Below the pieces are notes generated by a model. That model saw only the letters and a list, made by a program, of their open reading frames with translations. It searched no databases and was not told where the DNA came from. Below, piece after piece: positions 1-19,943 of a stretch of DNA of 64,000 nucleotides (the stretch's first letter is position 1; each line of letters starts with the position of its first letter). Origin of the DNA: Porphyridium purpureum (Eukaryota > Rhodophyta > Bangiophyceae > Porphyridiales > Porphyridiaceae). The stretch spans positions 1,054,001 to 1,118,000 of the forward strand of contig VRMN01000002.1 of NCBI GenBank assembly GCA_008690995.1. The letters are read 5' to 3'. The position numbers and the translations under genes are program-made.

Positions 1-291
1 GCATATGTAGGTAACGCCACTTTGTCATTTTTATCGGCTCAACGAGTCAACGGAATTTTGTGTCCGGTGTGGCGCAGGCTGCGGAGGTCTGAGAAGCGGC
101 GACCAAAATGGATAGGGGACAGTCCCTTTTACCACGTTTTACTAGTAAAATGAACCATTTGACTATGAAGAGGATAAAGGTCCGGTGGAACGGGAATGTG
201 CGGGGAGGTTAAGACGGGTAGGGGGCACATTCGCGATTGTCTGCTGCGCTTCGTTCGCGACACTATTGTTCTTCCCTTGCAAGGACGGGGT

Positions 292-804
292 ATGTCTTTG
301 CAAAACATTAGCATTGACATTCGGCACACGCTGCGCACGCTGCACTGGGGCGGGCGCAAGGAAACATATGAGTGTCGTAGAAAAAGCGATGGTGGGAAGC
401 GCTACGATATCGTTGCAGTAACACCAGAATCTGGTTGTCCCCGTCCCTGTATTGGCGAGATGCTACTGTTCTTGAAGATATCGTACACAACGTGTCCTGT
501 CAATGTGCAGGCAGCAGAGTATCCAAACGCGCGAATGACGGTCGAGCACAATCCAACAGAGTGGAATGTCGCTGTGGTATCACCGTGGAACTTGTGTGCG
601 TTGGATAGCTGCTACTGCATTATTGCCTCACCGGTGTTGCATCATTTGGTTGCAGATGATACCCTCGATAATCTGCTCTGCATCCGTGCGGAGCATATCC
701 TCACAAAAGTTTGCGCACTCTTGGATGTGAATACACACGCCCACGACCGCAAATATTTCTGCCTTGATCCGTGTCGTCTCTTGCGAGTAGAAACATATGT
801 GTAG
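292..804 (+). CDS. Hypothetical protein, 170 aa (island gene 1)
   Basis: The frame is open from 196, but the first ATG is at 292, giving 170 residues. I recognise no domain. The protein is fairly rich in cysteine (about ten, including several in its last third) and has no clear signal peptide or membrane segment. It contains three ATAT palindromes (365, 406, 477), a fourth at 752, and its last sense codons before the stop run through the CATATG at 794-799. Like its neighbours it belongs to the palindrome-rich island. It may be a real gene or an exon of one; only the open length and the shared sequence style support it. Confidence 0.4.
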   Translation: MSLQNISIDIRHTLRTLHWGGRKETYECRRKSDGGKRYDIVAVTPESGCPRPCIGEMLLFLKISYTTCPVNVQAAEYPNARMTVEHNPTEWNVAVVSPWNLCALDSCYCIIASPVLHHLVADDTLDNLLCIRAEHILTKVCALLDVNTHAHDRKYFCLDPCRLLRVETYV

Positions 805-1066
805 AGGAAAGCATGTCGATGAATTTTGCCCCCTTCGCTCACTTTGAAGACCAACAATGCGATCCCTTCCGTAGCTCGTCCCGCTCTGCCTCGGTGTCTC
901 CAGCCCACCCATGAGCGCGCGGCTCCACGGGTTTGCCTTTGCACATGCAGGGCCTCGAAGGCGTCCGGTAAATTGTTTACGCCGGGCGTAACGAAGCGAT
1001 ACAAAGTCACACCGTTCCCCAACACTACTTCGAGCTCCCAGCGAAGGAGAGGGAGGTGGTTTATGG

Positions 1067-1696
1067 ATGAAAATGCCAGTCCTTATGGAGACAGCAAGCG
1101 AACCGACGAGAAAAACGAATGACGCGCGGGGTTCAAAGCGCAAGCGTACCGGCGTCGAACCAGGTGTGGAGCCAGTGAGTCCACGCGCGGTGCCATCCCA
1201 TTTGGCTCGCGCAGCCCAGATGCAACGTGAACATGATAGTGCAAAGTCAATTGACATTGCGGATATCCGGCACTTGCACGACTTGGGTCGTGCGAGCGAT
1301 GGTATGGCGGTCAGTGACGACGACGGTCTTGTCCATCGACTGCTCCGCGTACTGATGTTCGCCACTGACGTGATAGAAGACCGTGCCCGGATCAAGGAGC
1401 TTGAGATGAGGGTAGCAGCATTGTCCCGGAAGGTCACAATATTGGAGACTCGGATACACGGGAGCGTCGCCGTTGACTCGCTGGATGTCAGCGATATTGA
1501 GACACCAAAGTCGGTAATTGGTGACGTGAGCCTTGCACAGTTCACGAGAGCCGCCCCGATATCGGACGCAGTAGCCGGGAATATCCGCGACATTTACACT
1601 CGTAGATGCGGCATCGCAAAAACATGGCTGCGTTCCATAGCCCCGCATGACAGACCTTACCCATATGAACTGGTTCTGGCAAGATACGCCGGATGA
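1067..1696 (+). CDS. Hypothetical protein with coiled coil, 209 aa (island gene 2)
   Basis: Starts at ATG 1067. The first 35 residues are basic, with a KRKR-type cluster that could be a nuclear localisation signal. Residues around 110-140 form a heptad-like helix (IKELEMRVAALSRKVTILE), suggesting a short coiled coil and self-association. No catalytic motif is visible and I do not recognise the family. GATATC at 1262 and 1558, AATATT at 1438 and CATATG at 1662 lie inside it. A 321-aa frame antisense to it (628-1593) is judged a shadow because it lacks any recognisable order, but that choice is not certain. Confidence 0.45.
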   Translation: MKMPVLMETASEPTRKTNDARGSKRKRTGVEPGVEPVSPRAVPSHLARAAQMQREHDSAKSIDIADIRHLHDLGRASDGMAVSDDDGLVHRLLRVLMFATDVIEDRARIKELEMRVAALSRKVTILETRIHGSVAVDSLDVSDIETPKSVIGDVSLAQFTRAAPISDAVAGNIRDIYTRRCGIAKTWLRSIAPHDRPYPYELVLARYAG

Positions 1697-1902
1697 CCAT
1701 GGTGGCCGGCCGTGGTGGTTCTCAGTATTGACGGACTTGGCCCTGAAGTTCTTATGAAAGGGTGCGTGCGAGATACCTCTGAAGAAAGCCGCAAGAAAGC
1801 CGACGAAGATGCGATGACATTGAGGAAGGGTTGCATCGTTGTCCGTTTCCTTGGGAAAAGCGCCGCATCTTTTGTGTGGGTCCTCATGGAGCACCTACAC
1901 AT

Positions 1903-2034
1903 ATGAAGCACGATTTTACCCTTGCAGATGGTACGCCGAAAGGGCGCACAAAGCCATCGAAAGAGTTGGCGTCGGCGTATGCCATGGCGAAACAGTATGC
2001 TGATATCAGACTCAATGGCGCAAAGACCCGTTGA
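1903..2034 (+). CDS. Possible small ORF or 3' exon, 43 aa
   Basis: An ATG at 1903, embedded in the CATATG at 1900-1905, opens a lysine- and alanine-rich 43-residue frame ending at 2034. It lies 207 bp after island gene 2 on the same strand and 58 bp before the 3' end of the convergent gene at 2093. It could be a separate small protein, a terminal exon of gene 2, or chance. GATATC at 2002 is inside. No similarity is recognised. Confidence 0.2.
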   Translation: MKHDFTLADGTPKGRTKPSKELASAYAMAKQYADIRLNGAKTR

Positions 2035-2092
2035 TGACTTTTTGTCTGCGCAAGGCGAGCAATAAACTCCATTTATAAGCAGTACACTATGT

Positions 2093-3727
2093 TCAAGGTT
2101 TCGTGTCCGAACCGGAATATTCCATGTAGTCCAGGAACGACGGTGCAGATGCCGCGGATGGTGCGCCCATAGCTTGTTCGATATCGTCGCTTTCATTCAT
2201 TGAGTTCACCGTTGGAGCATGTGAAGGTCGGGGCAAACGACTAACAGACGCGCGCGGGCAATTGATGAGGCGCAATTGAGTTGCACGATATCGGATGGCT
2301 CGACACAAGCGTAGGTCTCCGTCGTTGATTGCGATATCGCTGTCACGGACACAAATTCGGCCCTCTTCGTCCAGCTGTATGGAATGGATATCCGAGCGAA
2401 ACCAGCGTCGGCATATCTGGATACACTTCAATATGCCCATGAAGCCCTTCTCAGGCAGCTTTTCATCAGCCCAAGACGTATATGCTTCCCAGTGTACTGG
2501 AATATTCCATTCGTCTTCATTATCTCCAGACATGTCATCACTTTTCTCCGATCGGTCTTGCCACTCCGATGCGGGGTCATCACGTGCTTGACACACTTTC
2601 GATACCGATGGTGCCCGCGCCTGAGCCGAAGAGACAACGAGGGAGTGCATCTGCAGCATACAGAGCCCTTCCAAGTTGAGTCCGATATCAGCAAACGGAT
2701 AGTCTTTTCCATCCTTCGCACCCGAGCGCAGGTCCAATAGTGACAGCATGAGCGAGTTTGACCACAGTGTCGACGACCAAGCCTTGTCAGATTCGGAACC
2801 GTCCCTATCCGGACGTAGCCATATGGAGTCCGCTTCATCGATTTTCAGCTCACGACAAAGGACACTGTAGTATGGATCCCGTTCAAGCGCCAATATTGAT
2901 CGGCTATACTTTCCCAGGACCTGCGTGATTGCGCAGTAGATCGCAGTCATCCAAGTGATCCCGAGATCGAGAGCTTCCTTCTCCTCGTTTGGCGTGATGC
3001 TGTCATCCAGTGGAACTAGACTTGTACCATATGGTGATACTGGCGTTCTGAACTTTCTGTACAGTCTAGTACTTAATAATGGCCGACAGGCAAACGACTT
3101 GACCGGTTCCTCAACCGTCCCGTCTCGCGTTATGCAGTCGACGACGCGACGCGCGGTTCCCAAGTGGGCCTTGAAAGCTGCCGCGAGCGACATGCGAATA
3201 TTCCTACGGAGCCCATTTTTGGCACCTTCCAGCGATTCCTGCATCAAAGTAGTAAGTGCTTCGTCTTCCATCATGGACGGAGGACCCACAAACCCAATGT
3301 CAGTGTACCATGTGGTAAACATTGTCAAGCCCGGCGATGCCGCTGGCGTGTACGGCTCGCGATGATCATATGTAGCGGCAAGGCGCTCGAAGTTGCGCCA
3401 GAAGTCCATACAGCCCGTACCCGCGTCGTCGACCTTTACAACAGCAGGCAACAGCCCACGATTCACAATATTGCGCACAAAGATATCGGTCGCGGAGCCT
3501 CTTCTGGCTCGCTTCTTCGCTCTGTCTTTCCCGCGGCGCCGCCGCCCAAAATTGGAGCCATCGACTGTGGAAGACAAGGCTGGTGTGACCACAGCCTCCG
3601 CCGGCGCGTCCTCATCCCCCCGCAGCCGCCGGGCCACTGCGCTGCGCGACGATATCTCAGCGCTGCGACTCATTCTAATATTGACACCCGCGCCACGGAC
3701 ACGCGCACCCCTTCCCAAGTCTGCCAT
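2093..3727 (-). CDS. Hypothetical protein, 544 aa (island gene 3)
   Basis: The frame is open back to 3754, but the first ATG is at 3727-3725, inside the CATATG palindrome at 3725-3730. The N-terminal 80 residues are strongly basic (an RRRRGKDRAKKRARR stretch), which suggests nuclear import or nucleic-acid binding. The middle is mixed alpha/beta with tryptophans, and the C-terminal part is acidic and serine-rich (around the SEKSDDMSGDNEDE stretch). No conserved domain or catalytic signature is recognised. About 15 ATAT palindromes lie within it. It is transcribed divergently from the large RING gene across a 282-bp spacer, so the two may be co-regulated. Confidence 0.55.
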   Translation of the reverse strand: MADLGRGARVRGAGVNIRMSRSAEISSRSAVARRLRGDEDAPAEAVVTPALSSTVDGSNFGRRRRGKDRAKKRARRGSATDIFVRNIVNRGLLPAVVKVDDAGTGCMDFWRNFERLAATYDHREPYTPAASPGLTMFTTWYTDIGFVGPPSMMEDEALTTLMQESLEGAKNGLRRNIRMSLAAAFKAHLGTARRVVDCITRDGTVEEPVKSFACRPLLSTRLYRKFRTPVSPYGTSLVPLDDSITPNEEKEALDLGITWMTAIYCAITQVLGKYSRSILALERDPYYSVLCRELKIDEADSIWLRPDRDGSESDKAWSSTLWSNSLMLSLLDLRSGAKDGKDYPFADIGLNLEGLCMLQMHSLVVSSAQARAPSVSKVCQARDDPASEWQDRSEKSDDMSGDNEDEWNIPVHWEAYTSWADEKLPEKGFMGILKCIQICRRWFRSDIHSIQLDEEGRICVRDSDIAINDGDLRLCRAIRYRATQLRLINCPRASVSRLPRPSHAPTVNSMNESDDIEQAMGAPSAASAPSFLDYMEYSGSDTKP

Positions 3728-4009
3728 ATGGCGCGCCACCTTCGAGACGCACAAGTTCGCCTATCTCTCTTCTCCCCCTTGGCGAGAGCGCGCGCAAAAG
3801 ACAAGTCTAGATTGGAAAAATAGAGCTATTTTCATATCAAAACGTGACCTCTTGGACGTGACCCGTGTGGGGTGTTGGGGAAGGGATCGCATGCCGTCAA
3901 GTTGCGAAGGGGTCGCTTGCTCGCGGAGAAAAAGGGGAGCGGCGATATTGCGACAGAGGCAGGTTCTGCGGAGACGGGGATTTGCCGGCTGACGACAGCA
4001 CTTGTCCAT
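3728..4009. promoter_or_regulatory. Divergent promoter region of the two large island genes
   Basis: This 282-bp spacer separates the ATG at 3727 (minus) from the ATG at 4010 (plus). Both initiation codons are themselves the second half of a CATATG palindrome, so a site sits at each border (3725-3730 and 4007-4012). Between them there is no further site and no convincing TATA box; an AT-rich stretch lies at about 3815-3840. A longer non-ATG open frame on the plus side begins at 3872 (GTG) and is not taken as the start. Confidence 0.4.
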
Positions 4010-7000
4010 ATGGAACGCTCGCTCGGTTCATACCGGGCGGAGGCATGGGAGCTGGAGGACTTGTACGCGTCCGGAGATATCACCCAGGATGACTTGGACG
4101 CCACTCCATATGGACAAAGGATGTGGTTCGGGCCGCTGCTGCCGCCCGATCTTCCGCAGGTCTCTCGGGTGCGGCGCACGGAAGCCTTGCGCCGTGACGA
4201 GACGGCCGCGTCGGACCCGATGTCTCACGCCGATATCGGAGCCCGCGAGGCGCACCTGGGCATCGCTGTGAGCCATGCCTTTTTGATGTACTTCAGCAAT
4301 ATTGTTGGAGCTCTCAAGTGTCTACTTGGCGGCGTCACGGTGGCCCACTGGATCGCAGAAACCCCATATGGGCAGCACCACTATTCAGCTCATATGGGAG
4401 AGCGGGAGGTGGCACTGTATCGCATGTTTCTGGCGGCGCAGCGCACGGAACGCCTCTTTGCGTGGTCATATGACGAATTCACGGGTGCGGTTGCCGACCA
4501 AAGTGCTCCGCGCCAGCTTTCATATGGACATAAGCGCAGGCGCACTGACGCAGGTGCACTCGGATATCCGAGCCGTGCACGCATTGAAGAGAGTCTAGAC
4601 TTGGAGGCGTGGCTGCTGAAGCAGAGATGCGAGTGGCCTCGCCGCCTGACAACCGTTGGCCCATATGAGCTCAGCCCAAAGCCGACGCGAAGTGACGGCT
4701 GGAACAGCGCATATGCTCATTTTTACCATTTGCGCTCGCTTATGCCTGCTGCGTACGGTGCGCTATCATATGATGCTGCATTGGTGGTTCGCGTTGACGA
4801 TGATGCGGTGGAGCGCATCTTGAGGCTTACTCGCAACGCTTATCGGCTTCCTCAATTGCCGCGCAATATTGCATTCCCGTGCAACAGAGAAGCATGCCCG
4901 GCCGTCATTTTCGTCCACGAAGGCCCAAGGTTCCATGTGGAGACGATGCCGACAGGTCCGCGCAGGGCAAGAGACGTTGACCAATTGTTCCCGAAGGGAT
5001 GCTTGGCGCGCTTAGAACGCATCCGCGCCGCGCGCGTGATGATGGACTTTGCGACAACGCTCCTCGATATCAGCACGTATGCTATCGTATGGTTTGGCAG
5101 AGATGGCGCTCTTGCGCATATGCGAAACTTGGTCCAAGAGCTTCGGAGCCGTGTCATGTCCGCTGACTACTCGGGATCGGTCTTCCCATACGGGCCCACC
5201 GAGATGGATGAACAGCTGCAAAGGGTGTTTCGCTGGCCGCCACACCATACAGAGTATCATGGGCGCCAGCTGCGCGAAGCCTTCAGGATGGAAAACGTCC
5301 CGACCCAGCAGATTTCTGCAGATGGGCAGACTTATACCGTCCCACGCTACTCCGAGCGGCACGCCGTCGATATATGTGTAGCACGGCTGCGGAGCGCTCA
5401 GCTGTATGCTTGGCCTTCGATTGCGAGGACGCAATTGTATGCGTTCCGGGACGCGATAAATCCAGATGGAACGCACGTTCCAGAATTACTCGCACCACGC
5501 TTCGATGTCGGCATGGGCAACATCCTGGAATGGGGCATTGAGCTATGGGACCACACGGTAGAGGCGCACAATCGAATATTCGCACATGCGACGCATGACT
5601 ACCTGTGGGACGACCTGCCCGAACTGCATGCCACACCGAGGGACACGGACTTGGCCATTGCCAAGGTGTTTGGCAGCTTCCATATGGAGCACGGAGGTAG
5701 CAGGATCAACTTTGGCCTTCCTGAAGACCTCAATATTGATGCAGCCTCGCACGCAGCATCCATCGAGCTCGACACGGCAGCAATCCAGTATTGGAAGGCG
5801 CAAGAGACTGCCTTTGCCTGGGATCGGGGGAGCAGCAGCGTGTGGGTACGATGGTTATCTGGCAACGTGACCCGAAGACATACGTACCGCGGACACCAGT
5901 GCACATCTAATGTGCGATCAATAGAGCATGGGGGGACCGCGCCATATGGTGTCTGGATCGCCATGCTCAGGCGATTGTGGGTGGATGGCTGGCAGCTGCA
6001 GAGGGGCCTTGAATGTGCAGCGGAGATGCTACCACGCCCGTCCGAGCCGCGCACGCCATATGGCACCCGTTTTGAGGAGCCTTTTGCCCCGCAAACGCAC
6101 CGCACGTCCAGCTTCGCAAGCGGTACTTACGGGGATGTGCCATTGCCAGCGGCCAGCCAAAGTTGGAGCGATGTGGACATCGTGCAAAGTCCGATATCAG
6201 CAGCTGTGCGTGCACTTCCGGCGTCCGCACACGTGGATATCCAAGACTGCTTGATCTGTCAATTTCCAGTGACAGGCCAGTTCATCTACGAGTGCGCGAC
6301 CCTGCACCCGACATGCACCAGCTGCCTGCGCATGACATATGTCTTGAAGGTGGCGAACATGTACAGCGTAGAACTGTCGAACTTCCATATGAATGACAGG
6401 TTCATGCGCAATTACAGCATGTGCGAATTGTGCAGGAAGGCCGTTGGCGTCTGCCGCATATGCGAGCAAAATTACGCATTCGTGCCCTTCCATCTTGCCG
6501 GTGCAATCTGTACGGAAGGCTTCTCGGACGCTTTCGTCGACCACATGGAGAGATGCCTTTTAACATGGCATGTCACAGATTTTGCTGCTTTGGCCGGCTG
6601 CATCGCCGAACCCAGAAGCTCGGGCAGGTGGCGGATATCCACGAACCCACCGCTCGTCGAACTGGTAGCAGGCCAGGCGCGGCGCCACTTCGCGCACAGC
6701 ATATGCCACAATATTGTGCGCATAATGCTCGTCGAAATGCGCCGGGCCCGGGCTCGCCAGATGGCTTTGCAAGTGGAGGATATCCAGGAGTTGCTGGAGT
6801 ACTTCCCTGGAAATCGACGCAGGCCGTATGGAATATCCCGCAAGCTTGCGTTTGACGTTCTGGACACGCGCCGATTTCCTGTGTGGGACGATATCGTCAA
6901 CAAGTACAACATGTACTGGGATATCCGACCGGTCGTACAGGCAATTGGCTCGAGCCCAGATTGGCCTCACCCGCCGAACTTGCCCTGGTGCCAACATATG

Positions 7001-7432
7001 AACAGTACGTGGCGACCTGGGTATATCCGGCATTCTCGGGGTCAGCGCATGATGGAGGATATCCTTTCATATGAGCGACAGCGGGCTCGCTGCTGGTGCG
7101 ATTACTTCGTGTCGGAAACCAAGCTCCGCATGCGGCAGGCACTAAGCGATCATTTGGTCTCGCTGCAGGAAGGCGGCACCGGGTTAATACCGCCGCCACT
7201 GCGAGAGCTTTGCGTGTGCGACGAGTGCAGGACAGGGCAAGGCGTGGCTGCTCATATGAGAAGATACCCAGGGCTGGCGGACGACATGAAGATCGCGTGG
7301 TACCTTGCCAAGAAGGCCATCGCATATGCGAACCACGGCTCCGTGACGGGACCGCTCAATACGTACCAGGTGCCGTCAATATTGACGTGGTCACCGAGGC
7401 AATTCCGTGACCACGCTGACAGCACAGAATGA
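4010..7432 (+). CDS. Large RING-finger protein, 1140 aa (island gene 4)
   Basis: A single frame of 1140 residues from ATG 4010; the open frame extends upstream only to a GTG at 3872. A RING-HC finger is visible: Cys747-x2-Cys750, Cys762, His766, Cys769-x2-Cys772, then a 32-residue loop to Cys805-x2-Cys808. It is followed by another Cys pair, 815/818, which could replace the last pair. RING fingers commonly recruit E2 enzymes for ubiquitin transfer. The other 700 N-terminal and 320 C-terminal residues match nothing I know; they are rich in Arg, Trp, Tyr and His, and a second CxxC-type cluster lies near the C-terminus. About 38 ATAT palindromes lie in the gene. They are read as His-Met, x-Tyr-x (often Pro-Tyr-Gly) or x-Ile-x depending on phase, so the words do not reflect one protein motif. 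Confidence 0.7.
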   Translation: MERSLGSYRAEAWELEDLYASGDITQDDLDATPYGQRMWFGPLLPPDLPQVSRVRRTEALRRDETAASDPMSHADIGAREAHLGIAVSHAFLMYFSNIVGALKCLLGGVTVAHWIAETPYGQHHYSAHMGEREVALYRMFLAAQRTERLFAWSYDEFTGAVADQSAPRQLSYGHKRRRTDAGALGYPSRARIEESLDLEAWLLKQRCEWPRRLTTVGPYELSPKPTRSDGWNSAYAHFYHLRSLMPAAYGALSYDAALVVRVDDDAVERILRLTRNAYRLPQLPRNIAFPCNREACPAVIFVHEGPRFHVETMPTGPRRARDVDQLFPKGCLARLERIRAARVMMDFATTLLDISTYAIVWFGRDGALAHMRNLVQELRSRVMSADYSGSVFPYGPTEMDEQLQRVFRWPPHHTEYHGRQLREAFRMENVPTQQISADGQTYTVPRYSERHAVDICVARLRSAQLYAWPSIARTQLYAFRDAINPDGTHVPELLAPRFDVGMGNILEWGIELWDHTVEAHNRIFAHATHDYLWDDLPELHATPRDTDLAIAKVFGSFHMEHGGSRINFGLPEDLNIDAASHAASIELDTAAIQYWKAQETAFAWDRGSSSVWVRWLSGNVTRRHTYRGHQCTSNVRSIEHGGTAPYGVWIAMLRRLWVDGWQLQRGLECAAEMLPRPSEPRTPYGTRFEEPFAPQTHRTSSFASGTYGDVPLPAASQSWSDVDIVQSPISAAVRALPASAHVDIQDCLICQFPVTGQFIYECATLHPTCTSCLRMTYVLKVANMYSVELSNFHMNDRFMRNYSMCELCRKAVGVCRICEQNYAFVPFHLAGAICTEGFSDAFVDHMERCLLTWHVTDFAALAGCIAEPRSSGRWRISTNPPLVELVAGQARRHFAHSICHNIVRIMLVEMRRARARQMALQVEDIQELLEYFPGNRRRPYGISRKLAFDVLDTRRFPVWDDIVNKYNMYWDIRPVVQAIGSSPDWPHPPNLPWCQHMNSTWRPGYIRHSRGQRMMEDILSYERQRARCWCDYFVSETKLRMRQALSDHLVSLQEGGTGLIPPPLRELCVCDECRTGQGVAAHMRRYPGLADDMKIAWYLAKKAIAYANHGSVTGPLNTYQVPSILTWSPRQFRDHADSTE

Positions 7433-7685
7433 TCCATGTAGACCGGGTACAGGAAGTTGAAATATACAGCCAGTGACAATCAATTAAAAACTCCTGCTGT
7501 TTTGCACATTTTCTATGAAAATAGGTAATTTTAGAATAAAATTGAAGAAGGTCGACATTCCGGTGACCGTGTCATGAGAGGTAGAGGCAGCGCCGTGGTG
7601 CGGATTGTAGTAGAAGGCCATTCTCTTTACTAAACCGAAAGACCTTACCTCTGAGCCTATCTCCAAGTGGTGCCGAGTCGCCAGG
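7433..7685. other. Spacer between island and first retroelement
   Basis: No gene is seen. There is no ATAT palindrome after 7383. The last five bases (7681-7685, CCAGG) are the left copy of the target-site duplication of the adjoining retroelement. Confidence 0.5.
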
Positions 7686-7979
7686 TGTTATCCGTTCGAC
7701 CCCAGTCACCTAGAACGGTTCGGTTAATCCGAAACCGGTAAGCCGTTAAACCGGTAGACCGTTTAACCGTTTCTAGAAGCTTCTAGAGGTTCCAGAACCT
7801 TCTAGACGCGCGCAGAAATGCCAATGATTTGCATTGTCATTTCTCTTGGCGCCTTGCTGTCCCTGGCGGAAGTAAGGGTATAAAAAGGCGACGCGCCTGC
7901 CCGGACTAGCCGGTCAGGTCTTGCTCGGAGACAGAAGAGGCAAGAAGAAGAGAGAGTAAAAGGCACAGCATTGGTAACA
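7686..7979 (+). repeat. 5' LTR of the Ty3/Gypsy element
   Basis: 294 bp with TG...CA ends. It carries a TATA box (TATAAAAA at 7879-7886) that probably drives element transcription. Short AACCGGT/ACCGTTTAACC-type repeats fill the first half. It reads as identical to 12852-13145. Confidence 0.93.
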
Positions 7980-8549
7980 TTTGGTATCATCGCTGGTTAC
8001 CTGGGGTTGCTCTAAGGTTCTCTTAGAGTATCTCTGGGGTTGCCTGGGTGGGGGAGTCTGCGGGTTAGGGGGTTCGAGTAAGTCGATCCGGAGGGTGCGA
8101 CGGGCGGAAGCGGGTCTCAGTCTTGGCTGTACGATAGGCCTAGGCCTTGACGGCGGACTCGCTCTCTGCCTTAGCACGCATTAGTAGGCAAGAGCCGTAA
8201 CGGTCAGCCTTCACTAGGATTCATCCTAGTGTCGCACGACCACCTTTGCGAAGGTAGGCGCCGAACACCTCCATACAAGATCGCATCTATAATCCCCGCC
8301 CCAGTGCAAAGGCCCGGGCCGCTCCCCATCCAGCGCAACAGAGGAGGATTGTTGTGTGCTTTGTTGTGTGTGCGTGAGAAGATTGCTGTGTGCGTGTGTG
8401 TGCGTGAGAGGACCGCTTCGTGCGTCGATTTGTGGTCGTGAGGGCGACCGAGCCCCGTTCGTGGTGCGCGCAGCTGTTGGAGAAAGTGAGCATCGGAGGC
8501 TTGCTGTTTGTGTCGTTGTCGTCGTTGAGCGTGCTTTAGTCCAGAAAGC

Positions 8550-9356
8550 ATGGAGATTGATTCGGAGACGCTGGGACCACGTGGCCCGAAGGAGGCCCGT
8601 CTGATGAGGTTCGACGGGAAGCGTGACCTTCTGGTTGTGAAGACGTGGTTGTTCCAGGCGAGAAAGAAGATCTTGGGCCGGCTGTCGGAGAGCATCCACC
8701 CGGACGATTTGGAGAAACGTCTGCTTGCGGAGAGGCGTGCTGTGGACCTGGCATCAGACTATTTCGAGGGAGAGGCGCTTCATTGGTGGGTTCTGAACTG
8801 CGAGCGCTACCCGCAGGAGATCCCCACGACGTGGAATGATTTTGCTGCCCTCGTGAGTGCTCGGTTCACGCCGCAGGATTCGATCAGGCGTGCAAGGGAC
8901 AAGTTGACGCGTCTTTCGCAGAAAGGCCCGGCCCATGCGTATGTGGCGGCTTTTCAGAACGCGGCACTTGTGATTCCGGACTTGTCGGACGCAGAAATGA
9001 TGGACCGCTTTGTGAGGGGTCTGAAGCCCGAGGTCCGCCTGGAAGTTTACAAGCGAGGAGTGAGTACGTTTGCGGAGGCTGCGCAGGTGGCGGTGGTCGT
9101 GGATGACGCCATTCATGCGACCCGCGGCGTGCGTGATTCAAGTGTGAGGGCGCCATTTTTCGGTCGTGCAGCGCAGGAAGGACCTGTCCCGATGGAGCTC
9201 GGGAACGTGCAGGGTCAGAGGCGTGTTCGTACCGAGCTCAAATGCTGGAATTGTGGAAGGCCGGGACACATCGCCAGGAAGTGTCCCGAGGCAAGGAAGT
9301 CTATCCAGCAGCTGGAGGGAGACTCGCTGGAGTCAAAAAACGAGGAGCTCGAGTAG
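8550..9356 (+). CDS. Gag of the Ty3/Gypsy element (268 aa)
   Basis: Capsid/nucleocapsid polyprotein of the retroelement, starting at ATG 8550. The middle has the retrotransposon Gag fold signature (an ALHWW-type motif, then an F-x-RF-x-P region), and the end has one CCHC zinc knuckle (CWNCGRPGHIARKC) for RNA binding. It follows a 570-bp leader and overlaps the start of the pol region, as is common when gag and pol lie in different frames. Confidence 0.88.
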   Translation: MEIDSETLGPRGPKEARLMRFDGKRDLLVVKTWLFQARKKILGRLSESIHPDDLEKRLLAERRAVDLASDYFEGEALHWWVLNCERYPQEIPTTWNDFAALVSARFTPQDSIRRARDKLTRLSQKGPAHAYVAAFQNAALVIPDLSDAEMMDRFVRGLKPEVRLEVYKRGVSTFAEAAQVAVVVDDAIHATRGVRDSSVRAPFFGRAAQEGPVPMELGNVQGQRRVRTELKCWNCGRPGHIARKCPEARKSIQQLEGDSLESKNEELE

Positions 9357-12300
9357 AGAGGTTCCTCGGACAGTCAGAGGGAAAGGAGGCTCGCAGACGT
9401 TACGAGACCTCTAGGGGCGGCAATGAAGACCGCTGTGGTGGCCTTGGTAAGCCAAGGTCTGGCTGTCCGACACCTTGTGGGCGAAACTCGAGCGCAAATC
9501 AGCCCGTGATCAAGGAACTTGGAGGGATGGGAGCTGCCATGCTTCTTCGAGTTCGAGGAAAAGTGCACAAGTCCGACGGAGAGGCCACGTTTTTGATTGA
9601 CAGTGGCGCGACGGACAACTTCATGAGCGTGGACTTTGTGCTGAAATCCGACGGCCTGAAGCAGAAGGCGTCGTGGAAGAGAGATCATGTGACCCTAGCG
9701 GATGGGTCTGTATTGGAAACAGCCGGAGAAGTTTCCAATGTCAAGTTTGAACTGAGCGATGGGTACTCAGGGGCCGCTAACTTTGCCATTTGCCGGATTG
9801 CGGGACAAGACGCAATCTTGGGCATGGAGTGGCTGAAGCGGGAGAACCCAGTGATTGATTGGCAGTCTGGCATGTTGGCCTACGGAGAGAAGAAGGCCTG
9901 GAGCATGACGCAGATGCTGGTGCCGCGGAAAGAGCTCCGTCGGCTGTTGAAGAGTCAGGAGGTAGAAGAGTGCTACCTCGGCGTGCTGAAAGGAAGGGAG
10001 GAGCCCTGTTCAGTGGAGCGCAAAGGAGATGACTCTGTGAAGAAGATGCTCAAAGATTTCGAAAGTCTGTTCGAGGAGCCACGAGGGCTGCCTGAGAGCC
10101 GAACAGTGGAGCATGTGATTAGGCTGAAAGATGAGAAGCCTGTGAGAGTGGGCAGGGTCTACCGACTGAGCCCTGCGGAGTTGAAAGTCCTCCGAGAGAC
10201 TTTGGATGACTTGCTGGACAAAGGATTCGTCCAGCCGAGTCAGAGCCCGTTTGGAGCACCCGTGCTGTTCGTGAAGAAGAAAGACGGCAGCATGAGGATG
10301 TGCGTCGATTATCGGGCGTTGAACGACGCGACTGTGAAGGACCGGTATCCGTTGCCGAACATGGATGAGTTGCTGGATCGACTGGGCGCAGCTCACTGTT
10401 TCTCAAAGTTGGATTTGGCATCGGGATACCACCAGTTGCGTGTTCGGAGAGAGGACGTGCCGAAGACCGCGTTCCAGACCAGGTACGGACAGTTCGAGTT
10501 CCGTGTGATGCCGTTTGGTCTTTGCAACGCGCCGGCAACTTTTCAGAGGGCCATGAACGAGCTGTTTGCAGATCTGCTGGACAAGACCGTCATTGTCTAC
10601 TTGGACGATATTTTGGTCTTTACCAAGGATAGGCAGTCGCACGGCGAGGTCCTGAAGGAAGTGTTGTCGCGCTTGCAAAAGGCGGGGTATCGGTTGAAGC
10701 GCAAGAAGTGCAGCTTCTTCGTTTCTGAAGTCGAATACCTGGGGAACATTGTCGGGAACGGTTGCGTGAAGATGGATCCACGGAAGGTGGAAGCTTTGAG
10801 AGATTGGCCAGTGCCAAAGACGGTGACGGAGTTGAGATCCTTTTTGGGAATGACAAACTGGTTTCGGAGGTTTGTTAAAGGATACTCTACCGTCGTGGCG
10901 CCGCTGACTTCGCTGTTGCAGAACGCAAAGTCGAAGAAGCAGCTGATCGAACTGGGAGATGAAGGCAAGTCGGCCTTCAAGAAGATTGTGGGGATGTTGA
11001 CGGAAGCGCCGGTGTTGGCCTTGCCAGACCCTGAAAAGCCATTTGAGGTGTACACGGACCGCTCCGAAGTCGCGGTGGGGGATGGCTGGCACAGGAAGGC
11101 AGACCGGTCGCGTTTACGTCGAGGAAGCTGCTGGACCGAGAGACCAGGTACAGCAGCTATGAAGGTGAGCTCATGGCCGTCATTCACTGTCTGCGAGAGT
11201 TTCGACCTTATCTGTACGGGGCAAAGTTTGTGCTGCATACAGATCATGAGGCGTTGAAACATTTGATGACGCAGAAGCAGCTGAATGGCCGGCAAGCACG
11301 GTGGTTGGACTTTTTAGCCGAGTTTGACATCACAATCGACTATGTGAAGGGAAAGTCGAACGTGGTAGCCGATGGTTTGTCGAGAAAGCCAGAGTTGCAT
11401 GCGCTAGAGTACCAAGTTCGGTGTGATGAATTTGGTGCGGGGTTCCAGGCATTCGTGGGTTCGTACTCGAGTGACCCAGACTTTGGTGCTTTGATGGGGG
11501 ATTTACCGACCCACCAAGGCTTTCGAACCGAAGCTGGGCTCTTGTACTTGAGGAATCGCGTTTGCGTGCCGAGGAAGTTCAGAGAGCGTGTCATGCAGCT
11601 CCACCACGATATCCCGACAGCAGGACACCGTGGAGCGGACACAACGTATGCATCTTTGATAACTCGCTTCTACTGGCCAAAGATGAAGCGAGACGTGAGC
11701 CGTTTTGTGAAGACTTGTCACGCGTGCCAAGTGACAAAGTCAGAGAATCGGTCGTTTGGAAAGCTGAAGCCCTTGTCGATCCCAGAAGGACCTTGGGTCG
11801 ACATTTCGATGGACTTTGTGACGGAGCTGCCTCGGAGCGAAGGCAGCTGTGATGCAATCATGACTGTGGTGGATCGCTATTCGAAGATGGCGCTGTTTAT
11901 CCCGACGCGCAAGGACTTGACAGCAAAGCGTTGTGCTGACTTGTTCGTGAAGCACGTCGTGAGCCGTTTCGGATACCCCAAGTCAGTTGTATCGGACCGA
12001 GATCCGCTGTTTACGTCCACGTTTTGGCAGCAGCTGAGCAAGCGGGTGGGCATGAAGTTGGCAATGTCTACCGCCAACCACCCGCAGACAGATGGCCAAA
12101 CTGAGCGAGTGAACCGCGTGATTCGGGAAATGCTCAAGCTGATGGCGACGAATAGTGGCTGGGTGCGAGACTTGCCGTTGTACGAGTTTGCGTACAACTC
12201 TGCACCAAGCAGTGCCACTGGATTCGCGCCGTTCAAAGTGGTGTATGGAAGGGATCCTTGGTTTCCACCGAGCGAAGGGTGGAGGCCTGCGCGCGACGGA

Positions 12301-12732
12301 CAGACAAAGGACATGGCGGAGCACTGGTTTCGCCTGTGCAAAGTCCATGAAGAAGTCCGCGACAATTTGATCGAAGCCCAGGGAGAATGCAGAAGTTCTT
12401 CGATCGACGCAAGGATGCCCGGGAGTTTCAAGTTGGTGATCAAGTGTTGATCACGGCGCCGCAATTGCGGCCGAACAAGAGTGATTTGGCGGCAACCAAA
12501 GTTTCTTGGTCCGGTGCCTGTCATTGAGAAGGTAAGCTCGCATGCTTACCGAGTGATTTTGCCCGAGGGTGTGGCTTGTCATGATGTTTTTCCGATCCAA
12601 CATCTGAAGCCATACTATGGACGCGAAGACTACATGGCAGGGGAAAATGATGAAGAAGTACCCGACGACCTGCCAGCGTCCGATTCTGAGCCAGACTTGT
12701 TGAAAATTATCGAAGAGTCTGACTCTGAATGA
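9242..12732 (+). pseudogene. Pol region of the Ty3/Gypsy element (PR-RT-RH-IN), broken
   Basis: Visible parts in order are an aspartic protease (DSGATDNF), a reverse transcriptase with the YLDD catalytic motif, RNase H, an integrase with an HHCC zinc region and DDE core, and a C-terminal GPF/Y-like tail (HLKPYYG). Order and motifs place it in Ty3/Gypsy. No chromodomain is seen. The region is not one continuous frame; about two breaks. Treated as a fossil. Confidence 0.88.
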
Positions 12733-12851
12733 CTTGGGAATTGTGAGAAGTTTGCTAGGCAGAGGTTTTCTCCCGGAGCGCGGGTTCCTCGAGCCAAGAA
12801 TGCAACTTAGTTTGAAGTCTCGCCGAGACGTCGAGCCAAGAGGGGGGGAGA

Positions 12852-13145
12852 TGTTATCCGTTCGACCCCAGTCACCTAGAACGGTTCGGTTAATCCGAAA
12901 CCGGTAAGCCGTTAAACCGGTAGACCGTTTAACCGTTTCTAGAAGCTTCTAGAGGTTCCAGAACCTTCTAGACGCGCGCAGAAATGCCAATGATTTGCAT
13001 TGTCATTTCTCTTGGCGCCTTGCTGTCCCTGGCGGAAGTAAGGGTATAAAAAGGCGACGCGCCTGCCCGGACTAGCCGGTCAGGTCTTGCTCGGAGACAG
13101 AAGAGGCAAGAAGAAGAGAGAGTAAAAGGCACAGCATTGGTAACA
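12852..13145 (+). repeat. 3' LTR of the Ty3/Gypsy element
   Basis: Copy of 7686-7979, with its TATA box at 13045-13052. It is preceded by the polypurine tract and followed by the CCAGG target duplication (13146-13150). Confidence 0.93.
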
Positions 13146-13753
13146 CCAGGCGAGAGGAGGCTGGCGCTTAAATAGAGCCGCTGCATTGCACTTCGCTTCT
13201 GCCGTGCGGGCACGGCCCTGCGGAGGGGTCGCCCGAGTGGAGGTGAGGGGTCGCGCCCCCTCCCGCGTCTTCGCCGTCGGGCGAACTAGCTGCCCCAACG
13301 GAGCGTCTCCATCCAGCCCGACCGGTTGCGGCGCCCTGGAGACAGGGACCGAACCGCTGCCGGTCTCGCCGTTGGGGCGTACAGCGATGTCATCACACCG
13401 TGCGAGCGTCCAAGCGATTAAAAAAAAGTGCAGTCAAACACACATTCCAGGGGTCATAGAGCATGGACACGAGCGCGCGGCGCGGTTTCATCAGGAGCAC
13501 AGCAATGTCTTTCAGTGGACAAGAGCCCAGCATGATTTGTGGCGTAGTTACGGAGGAATGCATGATGCGGGTGATCACGAACTGATCATTAAGATTTTGC
13601 TCCGTTGCATTAGTACAAAGGTATTTGAATAGCCTCAAAACGGAAAGCAAATGGAGACCCGATAAGAATGACGCAAGAATAAAATGCAAACCGCACCCAA
13701 AGCTTGAAAATGTCCCAAAGCAAGGCCTTCTTTTGCTGCGTTTTTGGTGTGCA
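13146..13753. other. GC-rich spacer between the two retroelements
   Basis: No gene is recognised. Positions 13195-13385 are strikingly GC-rich and hold nested inverted repeats: GCCCCAACGG (13292-13301) with its complement at 13369-13378, GTCTCCA (13305-13311) with 13337-13343, and GACCGG (13320-13325) with 13360-13365. The last 200 bp are AT-richer and featureless. The final four bases (TGCA, 13750-13753) are the left target duplication of the next element. Confidence 0.4.
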
Positions 13754-14810
13754 TGTCACGAACCGTGCTGGCCCAGGACACAGCGGCACACCCAACAGCA
13801 AGCCAAGCGGCACACGCACGCACACAAGCTGGACAATCCACGCAACCAAGAGGAAACACAAGACACCCGCAGTCAACTGGACCTGCGGCAGGCAGGAAAC
13901 CCGGAACCAACGACGCTCACGCACGCTGCTCACCCGCGAGCAGCCAAGAGCACCCACACACGGGACCGACAGAACCAACCAAGAGCAGACACACGGGAAA
14001 GACACAGCCAACCAAGAGCACACGCACGGAGCAGGCACAGCCAACCAAAAGCACACACACGGAAGACGCGCGTAACGGGGGAACCAGGCGTCCGCTGCCC
14101 AACCGGGATCCCGTTCGGCCACACCTTACGGTGATCCGGGACCCGGGGAGGCGTTGTGGGCAGCCGGGGTTAGCCGGAGGAGGTTACCTCACCTTTCGGC
14201 TTCAAACGGCCTATCACTCCTTTATCCGCCCCCGCCCACGTACCACCCCCGGATCCACTTCCGAACAAGGACCGTCTAATGACGCCTTACCCCAGGGCAT
14301 CCGCGAACCTTCCCCGTTAAACCCCCCGCTCGCTCGCTCGCGCTGTACTCCCGCCGTACCCCCGCCGTACCCCCGCCGTACCCCCGCTGTACTCCCGCTG
14401 TACCCCCGCTCCCTCAACAGGTACCCAAGGCCCGAACACGCTCCCTTGAATACACCTGTTTTTACTTAGATCCACCTTACTCCTTCTGTCTCCCGACCCC
14501 CCTCTCCCCCCCTTGGTTGCCGACCCGCGCGTCTTTTTATACCCATCGCGACCACTGTACCCCCGAGGTACAGTGCCTTGCTGTCGCTGAGTCTAGAACC
14601 TTCCAGAAGGTTCCAGCCACCTCCTGGCTGTACACCCATTCCATACTGGGTGGTCATCGCGCGTCTGGTCCCTAAGGGAAGGGGCCTTCAGGCCTACCAC
14701 GCGCCCCCTTGTACACCTACAGTACAGTGGGTCCGGCGCGACCAGGTATCCGGCCACGGACTATGGCTATTTTTAATCATTTCCTTAACACACGGGCTAC
14801 TCCCGTGACA
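13754..14810 (-). repeat. 3' LTR of the chromovirus
   Basis: 1057 bp, near-identical to 19944-21000. It contains a short tandem array of about 11-bp CCCCCGCCGTA-like units (about 14345-14407) and a minus-strand TATA box (complement of 14534-14541). Confidence 0.93.
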
Positions 14811-15049
14811 TCCCACCCTCTCCGCTTCCCAATGTCAGGTATCACATGGTCCGAAGCTTCCGGAGAGTCACTTCATACTTACAGCACATGCCAATGCTTG
14901 ACGCGTCCGGCATCCACGTCTCAAGCTCGATGTCGCCCGTGCACTGGCCATCGGCTTCGTGTGCCCGTCTTGGCAACGTAAGTACTCGAAGAGGACGTCC
15001 GTCCACGTGGCCCTCCACCCGGCCGGTGTGTCCGAGGTTCCGCCACTGG

Positions 15050-18000
15050 TCACGCGTCACGGTAGGCAGCCACCATCATTGGTAGCAATGCGAGCTCAGG
15101 TTCCCACGTATCCCCACGTTTACCGAGTCCTCGCCATCTAACTCTGTACTCTCGGCGTCCGCCCACAACCCGATCCCCGGCTATAGCCTCTATAGCCCAG
15201 CTGCCGTCTTCTCCTTGCAAGACTTGGGATCCACTTGCCTCAAGGAGGTCCTTGTGGGCCCGAGCAAGCCGGTTCACGTGGACCAACTTCCCGTCAGGAT
15301 GGCCTTCACTGCACAGTACTGCATGAACCCCGACCATTCTCAGGATGGATAGTGGTCCTACCCACGGCTTTTTCAGCTTGCGCCCTTCTCCTGAAGGCGG
15401 CGCCCAAACGTACACCACGTCGCCCGGCTTGAAGTCATGTTCCCTGACTCGGCGATCATAATTCTTCGTGTACGGATCCTGTGCGATCTTCGCATTCTTA
15501 TTGGCAATGGCGTGACATGCAGCAAGCTTCTTCGCGAGGTCATCTGCTTGTTCAACAGCTCTGGGTCCCGCCATACTTGCCCAGTCCCGCGCCGGCTCAC
15601 CATACAACAGTTCAAACGGAGACATCTTCGTGGATGCATGCCGGGCTGTATTATACGCATACACCATTACCGGCAACCAGCGATCCCAGTCTTTTCCGTT
15701 CGCACACACGTATGCCGACAACATTTGACACACTGTCTGGTTAAAGCGCTCCACAACCCCGTTCGTCTGCGGATGGTATGCTGTCGTAAGCATACGTCCT
15801 ACACCCAGATTTTCACACATTTTTGAAAGGATGTCGGCTACAAAGCCCGGTCCGCGGTCGGACAGCAGAGATTCTGGCGGTCCAAAATCGCACACCCAAC
15901 CGTCTAGGAAAACACGTGCCAGTGTAGCCGCAGTCTCATCCTTGACTGCATGGGCACGAACCCACTTTGTGAAGGCGTCCACCATGATTACCACTTTGCT
16001 GTGCCCGCGAGTTGTTGTCGGTGTGATACTCAGAACATCTATCGAGACAATCTCGAAACGTCTCACCGCGCGATAGACTTGCATGCGAGCCCTTCTCGGG
16101 GGCGCCTTTGTTTTCCTTGAAAAGCACTCATGGCAACAAAGAACAAACTGACGAACATCTTCCGTCCAACCGGTCCACCAGTATCGTGCATCCGAGACCC
16201 GCTTTGCAGTCTTTTCTATTCCAAGGTGCCCTGAAAGTGGCGTGCTGTGATACACATGCAGGACGCGCTGCACCAGAGCGTTTGGTATCACGACCCTGGA
16301 CTCATCGCGAAGCATAGCCCAGATGACTCCATCCTCATCAACGGTGTACTCCGGGTACGTGTATTCGGGCTTGTCTGCTTTCAGATTCTTCAACTGTTCC
16401 TGAATGTCCGTGTCGTCTGCGTATGCAGCCACGATCTCTTCCATCGAAGGTGGTGTGTACGCATCGTTCGCTTCTGTATGCTCGCCAGTATGAAGCAGCA
16501 GCTCTCGCACTCCGGCCGATGTGACAGGGACCATACCCCCATCGGCCCCCGAAGCTGGACCCTGAATCTCTTCCTGCAGCATTTCAGCCAACCGAACTAC
16601 TCGCTTCACTTCCTCATCCTCAACAGCATTCAGTCCAATGAGCTCGATTTCGCTCGTGTTGTTGAGAGTCTCAGGCTTATTGCTCTCGCTCGCCACCCGA
16701 GCCTCTTCCTCATTCATACGTACAGCTGGACGCGAAAGCGCATCTGCCACTGTATTCGCCTTGCCCGGATGATGCTGAACCTGGAAGTCGAAGTCCTGTA
16801 CCTTGAGAATCCATCGCGCAATCCGACCTTGAGGCTCCTTTTGCCTCATGAGCCAGCTCAATGCGCTGTGGTCAGTCATGAGCACGAATCGTTTGCCGTA
16901 CAAGTAATGCCTGAAGTGCTCCATGGCTGCAATGGCGGCCAAGCACTCCTTCTCCGTCACGGTATAGTTCTGCTCGGCCGGTCTCAGAAGCCTCGAGTAA
17001 AATGCCACTGGACGATCGCCAGTACCCTCCCTCTGCGTCAACATTGCTCCCAAGCCAGTGCTAGAAGCGTCTGTCCACAGCGTATGCTCTGCTTCTGGGT
17101 CGTATGCAGCCAAAACCTTTCGATCTCCAGTTTCTGGATCACTGAGTGCTTCCCGCAGCGATAGAAATGCCTGACGCTGAGGCTCACCAAATCGTGCCTG
17201 CCAATCCGCCGAGTTCATAGGGTATTTCTTCCACTTGCTTCCTTTGGCGTTGATTTGAAGCCCCTTCATAGCATCCCTAAGAGGTCTGCAGACTTCCTCA
17301 AATCCCTCGATAAAATTGCGGAACCACCCCACGAGCCCAATGAACTGCTGCAGTTCCTTTGCATTCCTCGGCTCCTGCCATGCTCGCACAGCCTCCGTCT
17401 TCCTCTGGCTCGGCCTTATACCGTCCAGGCCAATATCATGTCCAAGAAACTCGACCCTTAAAGCCCCAAATCTGCACTTCGACAATGAGAACACCAAGCC
17501 CGCAGCGCAGAATTGCTCCAGCACCCGCTGCAGCGCTTGCAAGTGCTCTTCAAAAGTCTTTGTCCCGATTGCCAAATCATCAATGTAAACCAATGCATTC
17601 AGGTACCTGAGCGGGCCCAGGACCGTATTTGTCAATCGCTGGAAGGTACTTGGGCTATTACAGCAACCCTGAGGTAATCGACAGTATTGAAACAGCCCGT
17701 CCGGAGTGATAATTGCTGTCAATGGTCGGCTCTCGGGGGCCAGAGGGACCTGGAAGAAGCCATCCTTCCGATCCAGGATACTCTTGAACTTCCACGATGC
17801 AAACCAGTCGATCATCTCTCCCACGTCCGGAATGGGATATCGATCTTTGACAGTCGCATCATTAAGCGTTCGGAAGTCTGTCGTCAGACGCCAGCCGCCA
17901 TTCGGCTTCTTGACCATGACATTCTGGCTCGACACATCTGACAAACTCGGCTCCAGCACTCCTCGGGCGACCAGCCCTTGCACCATCTCGCGCTCAGCCT

Positions 18001-18787
18001 GCGTCACCGCAGGAGCCCTGCGACGTAACCTTGCCCTGGGGAGATCCTCCAAACGCTCTGCCTTGATGCGGATCGTATGCTCGACGAGGTCTGTCTTACC
18101 CAGCTCCGGCCGGAAGAGAACCCAAAACTTCTTCAAGAGCCCCTTCATCTCCCTGCTTTGCGCTTCATCCAAATGCTCAAAGATCTTGGCTTCAATGGTA
18201 GAACAAACAGCCTCGTTGTGACCTGCATACTTTTCTTCGAGGGCCTGGATTCGCTTCTTCACTTCTGCTCCATCAGCAATATAGTGCACCGCCTCCAACT
18301 GCACCGTGGGTTTGGCTTCCTCATACATCGATCCCAGGATCCTGTGTCTTTCCAGGCATGTATGACACACGGCTTCCTGTGTACTGGAAACGTCTCGGTT
18401 GACAAAAGTAATCCATCCGCCCGAGCGTAGGCCCAGACCCTTTCCCGGGATCAAGCAACTGACATGCTTGGCAAGAAAACGCATTCCCAGTATGAGATCA
18501 GGTCCGAGGTTCCTCATAATCCGGACGCTTTCCTCCGACTGAACTCCCTCACCAACCCAAATTGTGGCAACGCTCTCCTCGGCCTCCCCCAACACCTCAT
18601 TGGTTGGACCCAATGCCTGTGTGTGGGTCTTTCTACGAAGAAGCCCAAGACGGTCAGCCAAATCGTCGTTCATCCACGTGGATAAAGCCCCCGTATCAAC
18701 CAGCGCAGTAGTCCGAACCTTCAGGACTCCCCATTCAGCCTGTACGTCTATCCATGGATACGAGCCCAGTGGGACTGCCTCCGACAA
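15050..18787 (-). CDS. Pol of the chromovirus (PR-RT-RH-IN-chromodomain)
   Basis: One frame of about 1245 codons. In order: aspartic protease (DTGALSTW), reverse transcriptase with YIDD, RNase H (TDASSTGLGA), HHCC zinc region and DDE integrase core, and a C-terminal chromodomain (REYRVRWRGLGKRGDTWEPE). Chromodomains of this class can steer integration toward marked chromatin. It appears whole. Confidence 0.92.
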   Translation of the reverse strand: MSEAVPLGSYPWIDVQAEWGVLKVRTTALVDTGALSTWMNDDLADRLGLLRRKTHTQALGPTNEVLGEAEESVATIWVGEGVQSEESVRIMRNLGPDLILGMRFLAKHVSCLIPGKGLGLRSGGWITFVNRDVSSTQEAVCHTCLERHRILGSMYEEAKPTVQLEAVHYIADGAEVKKRIQALEEKYAGHNEAVCSTIEAKIFEHLDEAQSREMKGLLKKFWVLFRPELGKTDLVEHTIRIKAERLEDLPRARLRRRAPAVTQAEREMVQGLVARGVLEPSLSDVSSQNVMVKKPNGGWRLTTDFRTLNDATVKDRYPIPDVGEMIDWFASWKFKSILDRKDGFFQVPLAPESRPLTAIITPDGLFQYCRLPQGCCNSPSTFQRLTNTVLGPLRYLNALVYIDDLAIGTKTFEEHLQALQRVLEQFCAAGLVFSLSKCRFGALRVEFLGHDIGLDGIRPSQRKTEAVRAWQEPRNAKELQQFIGLVGWFRNFIEGFEEVCRPLRDAMKGLQINAKGSKWKKYPMNSADWQARFGEPQRQAFLSLREALSDPETGDRKVLAAYDPEAEHTLWTDASSTGLGAMLTQREGTGDRPVAFYSRLLRPAEQNYTVTEKECLAAIAAMEHFRHYLYGKRFVLMTDHSALSWLMRQKEPQGRIARWILKVQDFDFQVQHHPGKANTVADALSRPAVRMNEEEARVASESNKPETLNNTSEIELIGLNAVEDEEVKRVVRLAEMLQEEIQGPASGADGGMVPVTSAGVRELLLHTGEHTEANDAYTPPSMEEIVAAYADDTDIQEQLKNLKADKPEYTYPEYTVDEDGVIWAMLRDESRVVIPNALVQRVLHVYHSTPLSGHLGIEKTAKRVSDARYWWTGWTEDVRQFVLCCHECFSRKTKAPPRRARMQVYRAVRRFEIVSIDVLSITPTTTRGHSKVVIMVDAFTKWVRAHAVKDETAATLARVFLDGWVCDFGPPESLLSDRGPGFVADILSKMCENLGVGRMLTTAYHPQTNGVVERFNQTVCQMLSAYVCANGKDWDRWLPVMVYAYNTARHASTKMSPFELLYGEPARDWASMAGPRAVEQADDLAKKLAACHAIANKNAKIAQDPYTKNYDRRVREHDFKPGDVVYVWAPPSGEGRKLKKPWVGPLSILRMVGVHAVLCSEGHPDGKLVHVNRLARAHKDLLEASGSQVLQGEDGSWAIEAIAGDRVVGGRREYRVRWRGLGKRGDTWEPELALLPMMVAAYRDA

Positions 18788-19764: not shown

Positions 19765-19943
19765 TTCTGCGACTTCGTTCCTGCTCCGAATCCTCTCTCG
19801 CAATCCTTCACTCGGTGACCGTACGTATCAGAATGTGGACACAAGTTTGCCCAAGATCAAGACCGATCTCACGTCCACACCCCACCCTCTCTCGCACCAA
19901 CGTCAGATGCCACGCAATCCTGGAAGATAATTTCCGGAAATTA

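Follow-up and report, generated by a model that had tools for sequence, protein, structure and literature searches.

The first 7.4 kb of a 64,000-nucleotide stretch of the Porphyridium purpureum genome (GenBank assembly GCA_008690995.1, contig VRMN01000002.1, positions 1,054,001 to 1,118,000 of the forward strand; hereafter the window) are densely set with ATAT-centred palindromes. Judged from its sequence, the island belongs to a truncated DNA transposon of the CACTA-like cut-and-paste type, one copy of a P. purpureum family here named A. The palindromes are tentatively read as selected, family-specific cis-sites over the transcription units of the element, by which a putative element-encoded reader would mark or protect the element's own genes.

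Palindrome array and host element

Positions 1–7440 of the window contain 79 ATAT, 67 of them in the form xATATx′ (30 CATATG, 23 GATATC, 14 AATATT, no TATATA). The symmetry runs beyond the central hexamer: 49 of the 67 are perfect 8-mers and 31 perfect 10-mers, six are symmetric over at least 12 and two over at least 14 positions. The counts given in a preliminary description of the window (67 palindromes, 49 8-mers, 31 10-mers, two 14-mers) were reproduced exactly on recount. The remaining 56.56 kb contain 64 ATAT, with 17, three and two perfect 6-, 8- and 10-mers, respectively; the depletion outside the island that had been described there was confirmed, and the number of palindromes was corrected from about 14 to 17. 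The two checks suggested in the same description, a genome-wide density and a codon-preserving shuffle, both bore out the excess. The whole genome (22.16 Mb in 46 contigs, about 1% of which was examined letter by letter) contains 2771 copies of CATATG and 3993 of GATATC, or 0.125 and 0.18 per kb; the densities in the island are 4.0 and 3.1 per kb. In 2000 codon-preserving shuffles of the island's four open reading frames (ORFs), 6-, 8- and 10-mers numbered 17.2, 7.2 and 3.2 on average and 32, 16 and 11 at most; the observed numbers are 64, 48 and 30. The G+C content of the island (51–59% per kb) resembles that of the rest of the window, so that composition is not the cause of the excess.

On the basis of the site positions and the shuffle statistics, the array in the element copy comprises 66 NATATN′ sites on no particular strand between positions 367 and 7380, including the 49 perfect 8-mers and 31 perfect 10-mers. 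All 66 fall within reading frames, two of them in the portion of the PWWP frame that the C8 copy keeps open and the window copy has lost; the 67th palindrome (position 4) lies to the left of the stretch common to the other copies. The sites are therefore not distributed alike over coding and non-coding DNA, contrary to the preliminary description.

The element itself, which the preliminary description had not recognised as a DNA transposon, was delimited by blastn against the other copies and by element bounds and terminal inverted repeats (TIRs); positions 224–7466 (plus strand) represent the right part of a truncated family A copy. Long pieces of family A are present at five loci (the window, C8, C12, C13 and C11), and all five carry the array. 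Identity to the window copy is 96.9% over 7243 bp for C8, 99.9% over positions 764–7685 for C12, 97.0% over 683–7372 for C13 and 96.4% over 4187–7466 for C11. The copies in the window and on C12 belong to a single segmental duplication (99.9%, right flank in common), and the five loci therefore do not represent five separate insertions. C43 carries 207 bp of the left end of the element. The complete element (C8:799964–810917, 10,954 bp) has 13-bp inverted ends with the TIR CAGTCCATAACCG at both ends and is flanked by GA on either side, a 2-bp target duplication (one insertion). It holds four open genes, which code for a transposase-like protein of 1121 amino acids (aa), a 321-aa PWWP protein (PF00855, E 8.9e-7), p553 (on the opposite strand) and p1186. 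The window copy is without the left part; it retains ~194 C-terminal residues of the transposase, and the PWWP frame is shortened. Repeated words that stand near the ends of family A elements (L022:4001–4400 and L023:4820–4900) are of the AGTATTAA type and, on the left, of the GTAATG/GCATTAC type; they differ from the internal sites.

Structure of the sites in family A

In the C8 copy, 120 ATAT were counted, with about 18 expected from the background. Complementary pairs at ±3, ±4 and ±5 accompany 101, 88 and 65 of the 120, against 38, 35 and 31 predicted from independent halves, and at ±6 to ±10 the numbers (36, 29, 27, 33 and 31) are those of chance. Every pair type was seen in the perfect 10-mers, except T-A adjoining the core. 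The family A site is accordingly a fixed ATAT core with up to three free but complementary arm pairs, at most 10 bp long and with no consensus word. A fixed palindromic word of the highly iterated palindrome (HIP) type fails in family A, since 28 different left halves were found among 46 perfect 10-mers. Codon-preserving shuffles (2000) never attained the observed palindrome counts, either in family A or in family C (see below), and no helical phasing of the sites at 10.5 bp was found in either family. A 10-bp flip (C8 TTCACGTGGA versus C1 TCCATATGAA) was encountered in one case only and was dropped.

Family C and evidence for selection on the sites

With the transposase as query, at least 54 further stretches of the genome were matched (25–48% identity, about 23 places) and were sorted into five families, B to F, and two singletons. 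Sites were examined in five of the six families (A, B, C, E and F), with B, E and F represented by a single copy (incomplete for E and F) and C by one copy together with part of a second.

Family C, represented by the copy on C3 (L030), has the core GTAC, with complementary pairs at ±3, ±4 and ±5 in 43, 37 and 41 of 76 cases (24, 20 and 21 expected). Within its ORFs, all three arm pairs are present around 21 of 45 GTAC, 15 of 43 GCAC, seven of 35 GTGC and one of 51 GCGC. Palindromic GTAC 10-mers (21) exceed a shuffle maximum of 6, and three-arm GCAC and GTGC sites reached a mean of 1.3 and maxima of 6 and 5 in codon shuffles; because GCAC and GTGC sites carry arms, the core in family C may be non-palindromic (though GCGC does not serve as one) while the arms must pair. 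The 3-bp arms are nearly all-or-none, and of the 57 perfect sites in the C3 and C11 pieces, 56 have G-C or C-G as the outer pair.

The strongest evidence for selection lies in this family. The C3 copy was compared with the C11 subfamily over 1500 bp of the transposase gene (24% divergent, gap-free; a single piece). Third codon positions differ in 6 of 43 cases (14%) inside the C3 sites and in 197 of 457 (43%) outside them, and for the C11 sites in 6 of 46 and 197 of 454, respectively; none of 480 shifted site placements gave a third-codon divergence this low. The family C sites themselves thus look selected. Seven of the 14 sites are identical between the subfamilies, against shifted means of 1.6 (C3) and 1.5 (C11) and maxima of 7 and 5. 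Nine sites are intact in both subfamilies and have identical arms; elsewhere the arms differ mostly on one side, and the only pair changed on both sides belongs to a site found in C11 alone. On C20, a decayed relative with 71.5% identity across 677 bp retains three of four ATAT, one of them with all arms.

In eight further long ORFs of the window, presumably host genes, no armed core exceeded z 2.7 (GTAC 1/88, ATAT 0/29, GCAC 2/99), and the rest of the window holds three perfect ATAT 8-mers with 4.1 expected, which is chance.

Placement and spacing

All 78 sites of the C8 copy with at least two arm pairs lie in genes, and none lies in the 1399 bp of non-coding DNA, where 11.4 were expected (P 1e-5). 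When sites with at least one arm pair are included, two of 101 are non-coding (14.5 expected). The ends and spacers of family A are without sites having at least two arm pairs. The family A sites occupy all three codon phases, and sites track genes on either strand. In family C, 49 sites over 5.3 kb are followed by none in the next 7.2 kb and by nine in the final 7.5 kb examined; 43 of the 49 lie in two ORFs, three between convergent ORFs and three no more than 70 bp upstream of the transposase start. Transcribed units would be the simplest common denominator of this placement.

The sites of family A are more evenly spaced than random: the coefficient of variation (CV) is 0.548 for sites with at least one arm pair (random 0.892±0.083, 0/5000) and 0.629 for those with at least two (0/5000). 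GYAC sites of family C gave a CV of 0.635 (random 0.89, P 0.01). The median spacing is 84 bp in family A (at least one pair) and 91 bp in family C (three pairs).

Other families

Family F is saturated on both strands with ATHCG (half-site frequency 0.165, background 0.027), an asymmetric word without arms; ATCCG occurs 81 times against 36 in codon shuffles. It was examined at L025:3400–10000 (C13:694400–701000), and the whole 6.6-kb stretch is matched at 99% on C39, C19, C18 and C40, so that this family was probably active recently. Family E shows weak TCGA symmetry and an excess of CATCG (z 4.0 against codon shuffles; the top word of control ORFs reached z 4.5). An E element is inserted in the family A copy on C13 (L039 and L024, C13:677680–687061), with CAGTCC ends and the 2-bp duplication TC (flanks TC/TC; one insertion). 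Families B, E and F gave no inverted-arm excess above z 3.5 at gaps of 0–40, the same as the control. PWWP accessory genes are present in families A and B; the PWWP protein of family B (L038:74–1123, C11:854074–855123; E 1.6e-5, just above the Pfam cut-off) is encoded beside a 1506-aa transposase frame. Next to the family C transposase, L030:5527–5940 is tandem-repeat-like and rich in CTTATA/ATATAC, and similar words occur on C30.

Interpretation and alternatives

Selection at the DNA level, as proposed in the preliminary description, is upheld by the codon-preserving shuffles and by third-codon conservation in the sister family C, and an element-specific mark, proposed there as well, agrees with the presence of the array in all five long copies and with the separate core of family C. 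Two other suggestions made there are not supported. Ordinary binding sites of a dimeric protein, with a simple consensus, are rejected, because the halves are not independent and no half-site consensus exists, the arms being free and co-varying, and the core in family C can be GCAC or GTGC; symmetric methylation at ApT does not generalise, since the core of family C contains no ApT.

In the mechanism that we favour, each family would encode a factor that recognises the core of that family at numerous positions along the family's transcription units. Reading of the core would mark the genes of the element as self and sustain their expression against host silencing, a role modelled on VANC (see below). 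PWWP domains bind methylated H3K36, and the PWWP protein, which would bind the chromatin of transcribed genes, may be the natural partner of such a reader. As the arms appear to be sensed by their complementarity and not by their sequence, intrastrand pairing is implied, and the form read would be a short hairpin (stem of 3 bp, loop of 4 nt) in opened DNA, RNA being less likely. Such a stem should be too weak alone, so the protein would have to hold the hairpin.

Extended to the superfamily, the arrays may constitute a new self-identity code, a possibility advanced with slightly more reserve: families of one transposon superfamily would tile their transcription units with a private core and mutually complementary arms, a reader would sense intrastrand pairing together with the core, and changes of core or grammar would diversify the families. 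Mobile elements would then write a private, degenerate recognition code, differing between related families, into their own working protein-coding genes. P. purpureum can be transformed, and self/non-self marking of transposon genes would be directly testable in this alga. To our knowledge, a fixed core with free complementary arms has no counterpart in double-stranded DNA recognition; no description of such an array was recognised among the papers listed in literature searches, judged by titles and abstract openings, with most subscription journals outside its coverage.

Several observations weigh against this interpretation. The grammar is not universal: arms of this kind were found in two of the five families examined (A and C), E being weak, F having a linear word without arms, and B giving no trusted site signal although it has a PWWP gene. 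In a 1-kb block common to F and E, ATHCG occurs 19 times in F and 12 times in E (CATCG 4 and 10), a modest contrast. Six of the family C sites lie outside called ORFs, so that "genes" in that family stands for inferred transcribed units. Even spacing does not reach significance for the strictest family A sites (three arm pairs; CV 0.777, P 0.13) or for GTAC sites of family C with at least two pairs (CV 0.792, P 0.32). The bare GTAC count of family C (45) is inside the shuffle range (mean 33, maximum 47), and the arms alone exceed it; some shifted placements likewise attain seven identical 10-mers. Sites are not clearly more conserved between family A copies, in which 25 of 610 columns vary in sites and 273 of 6382 elsewhere; at ~3% divergence the copies are too alike to give a conservation signal. 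Finally, perfect ATAT 8-mers number 17, with 7 expected, in a 50-kb sample from five other loci, of which four had been selected for holding CCATATGG.

It is possible, though unlikely, that the sites act in the mRNAs of the element as RNA stem-loops, each a 3-bp stem closed by an AUAU or GYRC tetraloop, bound by an element-encoded RNA-binding protein and serving mRNA protection, export or recognition in the manner of RNA-virus packaging signals. A fixed loop on a free, covarying stem is an RNA-like grammar, the sites follow genes on either strand and, in family C, extend into likely untranslated regions, and the C3 copy has more GCAC (15) than GTGC (7) in the sense direction. That excess is weak, however, and absent from the C11 piece (1 versus 2); sense-strand sites with two of three pairs show no wobble tolerance (19 G-U, 18 A-C); and the commonest core in both A and C is palindromic, which RNA does not need.

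Little credence is given to an origin and upkeep by biased mutation or repair that brings the element no benefit, for instance by arm-from-arm copying in a fold-back. It would account for arms that are free yet complementary, and a model of this kind has been proposed for HIP1 (PMC4390886). Against it stand the sharp limit at 10 bp, the near all-or-none arms of family C, the absence of sites from non-coding element DNA and the fact that sites in integrated family A copies vary as does the remaining sequence. The identical arms of the nine shared family C sites and the mostly one-sided changes elsewhere argue for selection with turnover and against copying from arm to arm.

Targets of a DNA-modifying enzyme, such as symmetric core methylation that marks the DNA of the element, are likewise improbable. 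The cores are mostly palindromic and family-specific, and the iterated palindromes of cyanobacteria accompany matching methyltransferases (PMC4390886). Pfam searches of the four proteins of family A and of the further accessory ORFs tested, however, found no methyltransferase domain, and a methylase requires a core, not free complementary arms. Even more doubtful are internal binding sites of transposase or a helper for transposition, similar to the subterminal repeats of CACTA elements: CACTA-like ends with repeated words near them do exist, but the end repeats are a different word and the ends are devoid of sites with at least two arm pairs. A by-product of codon usage, amino-acid motifs or base composition, for which the recurrence of Pro-Tyr-Gly as CCA TAT GG in p1186 might be cited, is refuted by the codon-preserving shuffles, the use of three codon phases, the third-codon conservation in family C and the ordinary composition, and is given almost no weight.

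Genes of the element and neighbouring DNA

The window copy holds the C-terminal remnant of the transposase gene (196–804, plus strand; five sites), which corresponds to residues 928–1121 of the 1121-aa C8 protein (96% identity). The PWWP-protein gene (1067–1696, plus strand; six sites) has a 209-aa open frame, which a stop cuts short by comparison with the 321 aa of the C8 frame; the homologous coding sequence continues to ~2033. The orphan proteins p553 (553 aa; 2093–3754, minus strand; 17 sites) and p1186 (1186 aa; 3872–7432, plus strand; 38 sites) follow. The ratio of non-synonymous to synonymous differences (pN/pS) between diverged copies is 0.42–0.67 for p553 and 0.30–0.64 for p1186; over the family A genes it is mostly 0.3–0.7, and up to 0.87 in the short PWWP gene, so the proteins have been under selection. 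The annotation lists the p553 copies on C8 and C13 as FVE85_9349 and FVE85_4211, both hypothetical proteins, and p1186 has a RING-like Cys/His cluster, judged by eye. Among 8000 candidates scored in each case, p1186 had no relatives and p553 matched copies of its own species only; searches of PDB sequences with both gave no match. An NCBIfam search gave nothing useful, and Rfam and tRNA scans of the window gave no match.

Conserved acidic residues, the element ends and the existence of copies point to the large protein as the probable transposase. The aligned sequences have invariant D and E residues, which are suggestive only, and no recognised transposase domain was found, the best Pfam E value being not below 0.075 in any of five aligned members (four families and P0001). 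One metagenome relative was found among 8000 candidates scored (34% identity over 43% of the query).

A Ty3/gypsy element (7683–13145) with identical 297-bp long terminal repeats (LTRs) and a Ty3 capsid-like gag with a zinc knuckle adjoins the transposon; the segmental duplicate of these flanks on C12 is without it at that place. A second LTR-like pair (13753–14811 and 19943–21001; about 1 kb, blocks 99–100% identical) encloses minus-strand ORFs at 15050–18787 and 18823–19803.

Comparison with known systems

Elements of the CACTA/EnSpm (CMC) group have inverted ends starting with CA, a short target duplication, repeated words near the ends and a large transposase; classical members have a CACTA tip and a 3-bp duplication. 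Family A resembles them in these four general features and differs in its CAGTCC tips, its 2-bp duplication and the lack of a Pfam transposase match.

HIP1 and the alternate HIPs of cyanobacteria are likewise iterated short palindromes that differ between genomes, but HIP1 is a fixed 8-mer distributed genome-wide, whereas here the arms are free and the array is tied to a transposon family (PMC4390886). Dispersed RNA packaging signals are numerous stem-loops with a fixed loop motif spread over the whole genome (PMC6281560, PMC3593212, PMC7612645); the present sites differ from them in showing no wobble tolerance, in the mostly palindromic cores and in their location in a DNA transposon without a known capsid.

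VANC, encoded by the VANDAL transposons of Arabidopsis, counters silencing in a sequence-specific manner, and related families have different words (PMC5735166, PMC10398659). The motif of VANC21 is the 9-mer YAGTATTAY, found mostly in non-coding DNA, in one orientation and often as tandem repeats (PMC5735166); that AGTATTA, which occurs in the end repeats of family A, is also contained in it is probably chance. Common to both systems are DNA transposons with accessory proteins and a dense, family-specific short word (here in A, C and F, weakly in E, and not seen in B). The present sites differ in lying in genes, dispersed and evenly spaced, with free complementary arms, and the accessory proteins match no Pfam family at or above the cut-off except PWWP, resemblance to VANC having been judged by Pfam only. 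Family-specific density is thus shared with VANDAL elements, and position and protein are not, so that the array would at most work like VANC.

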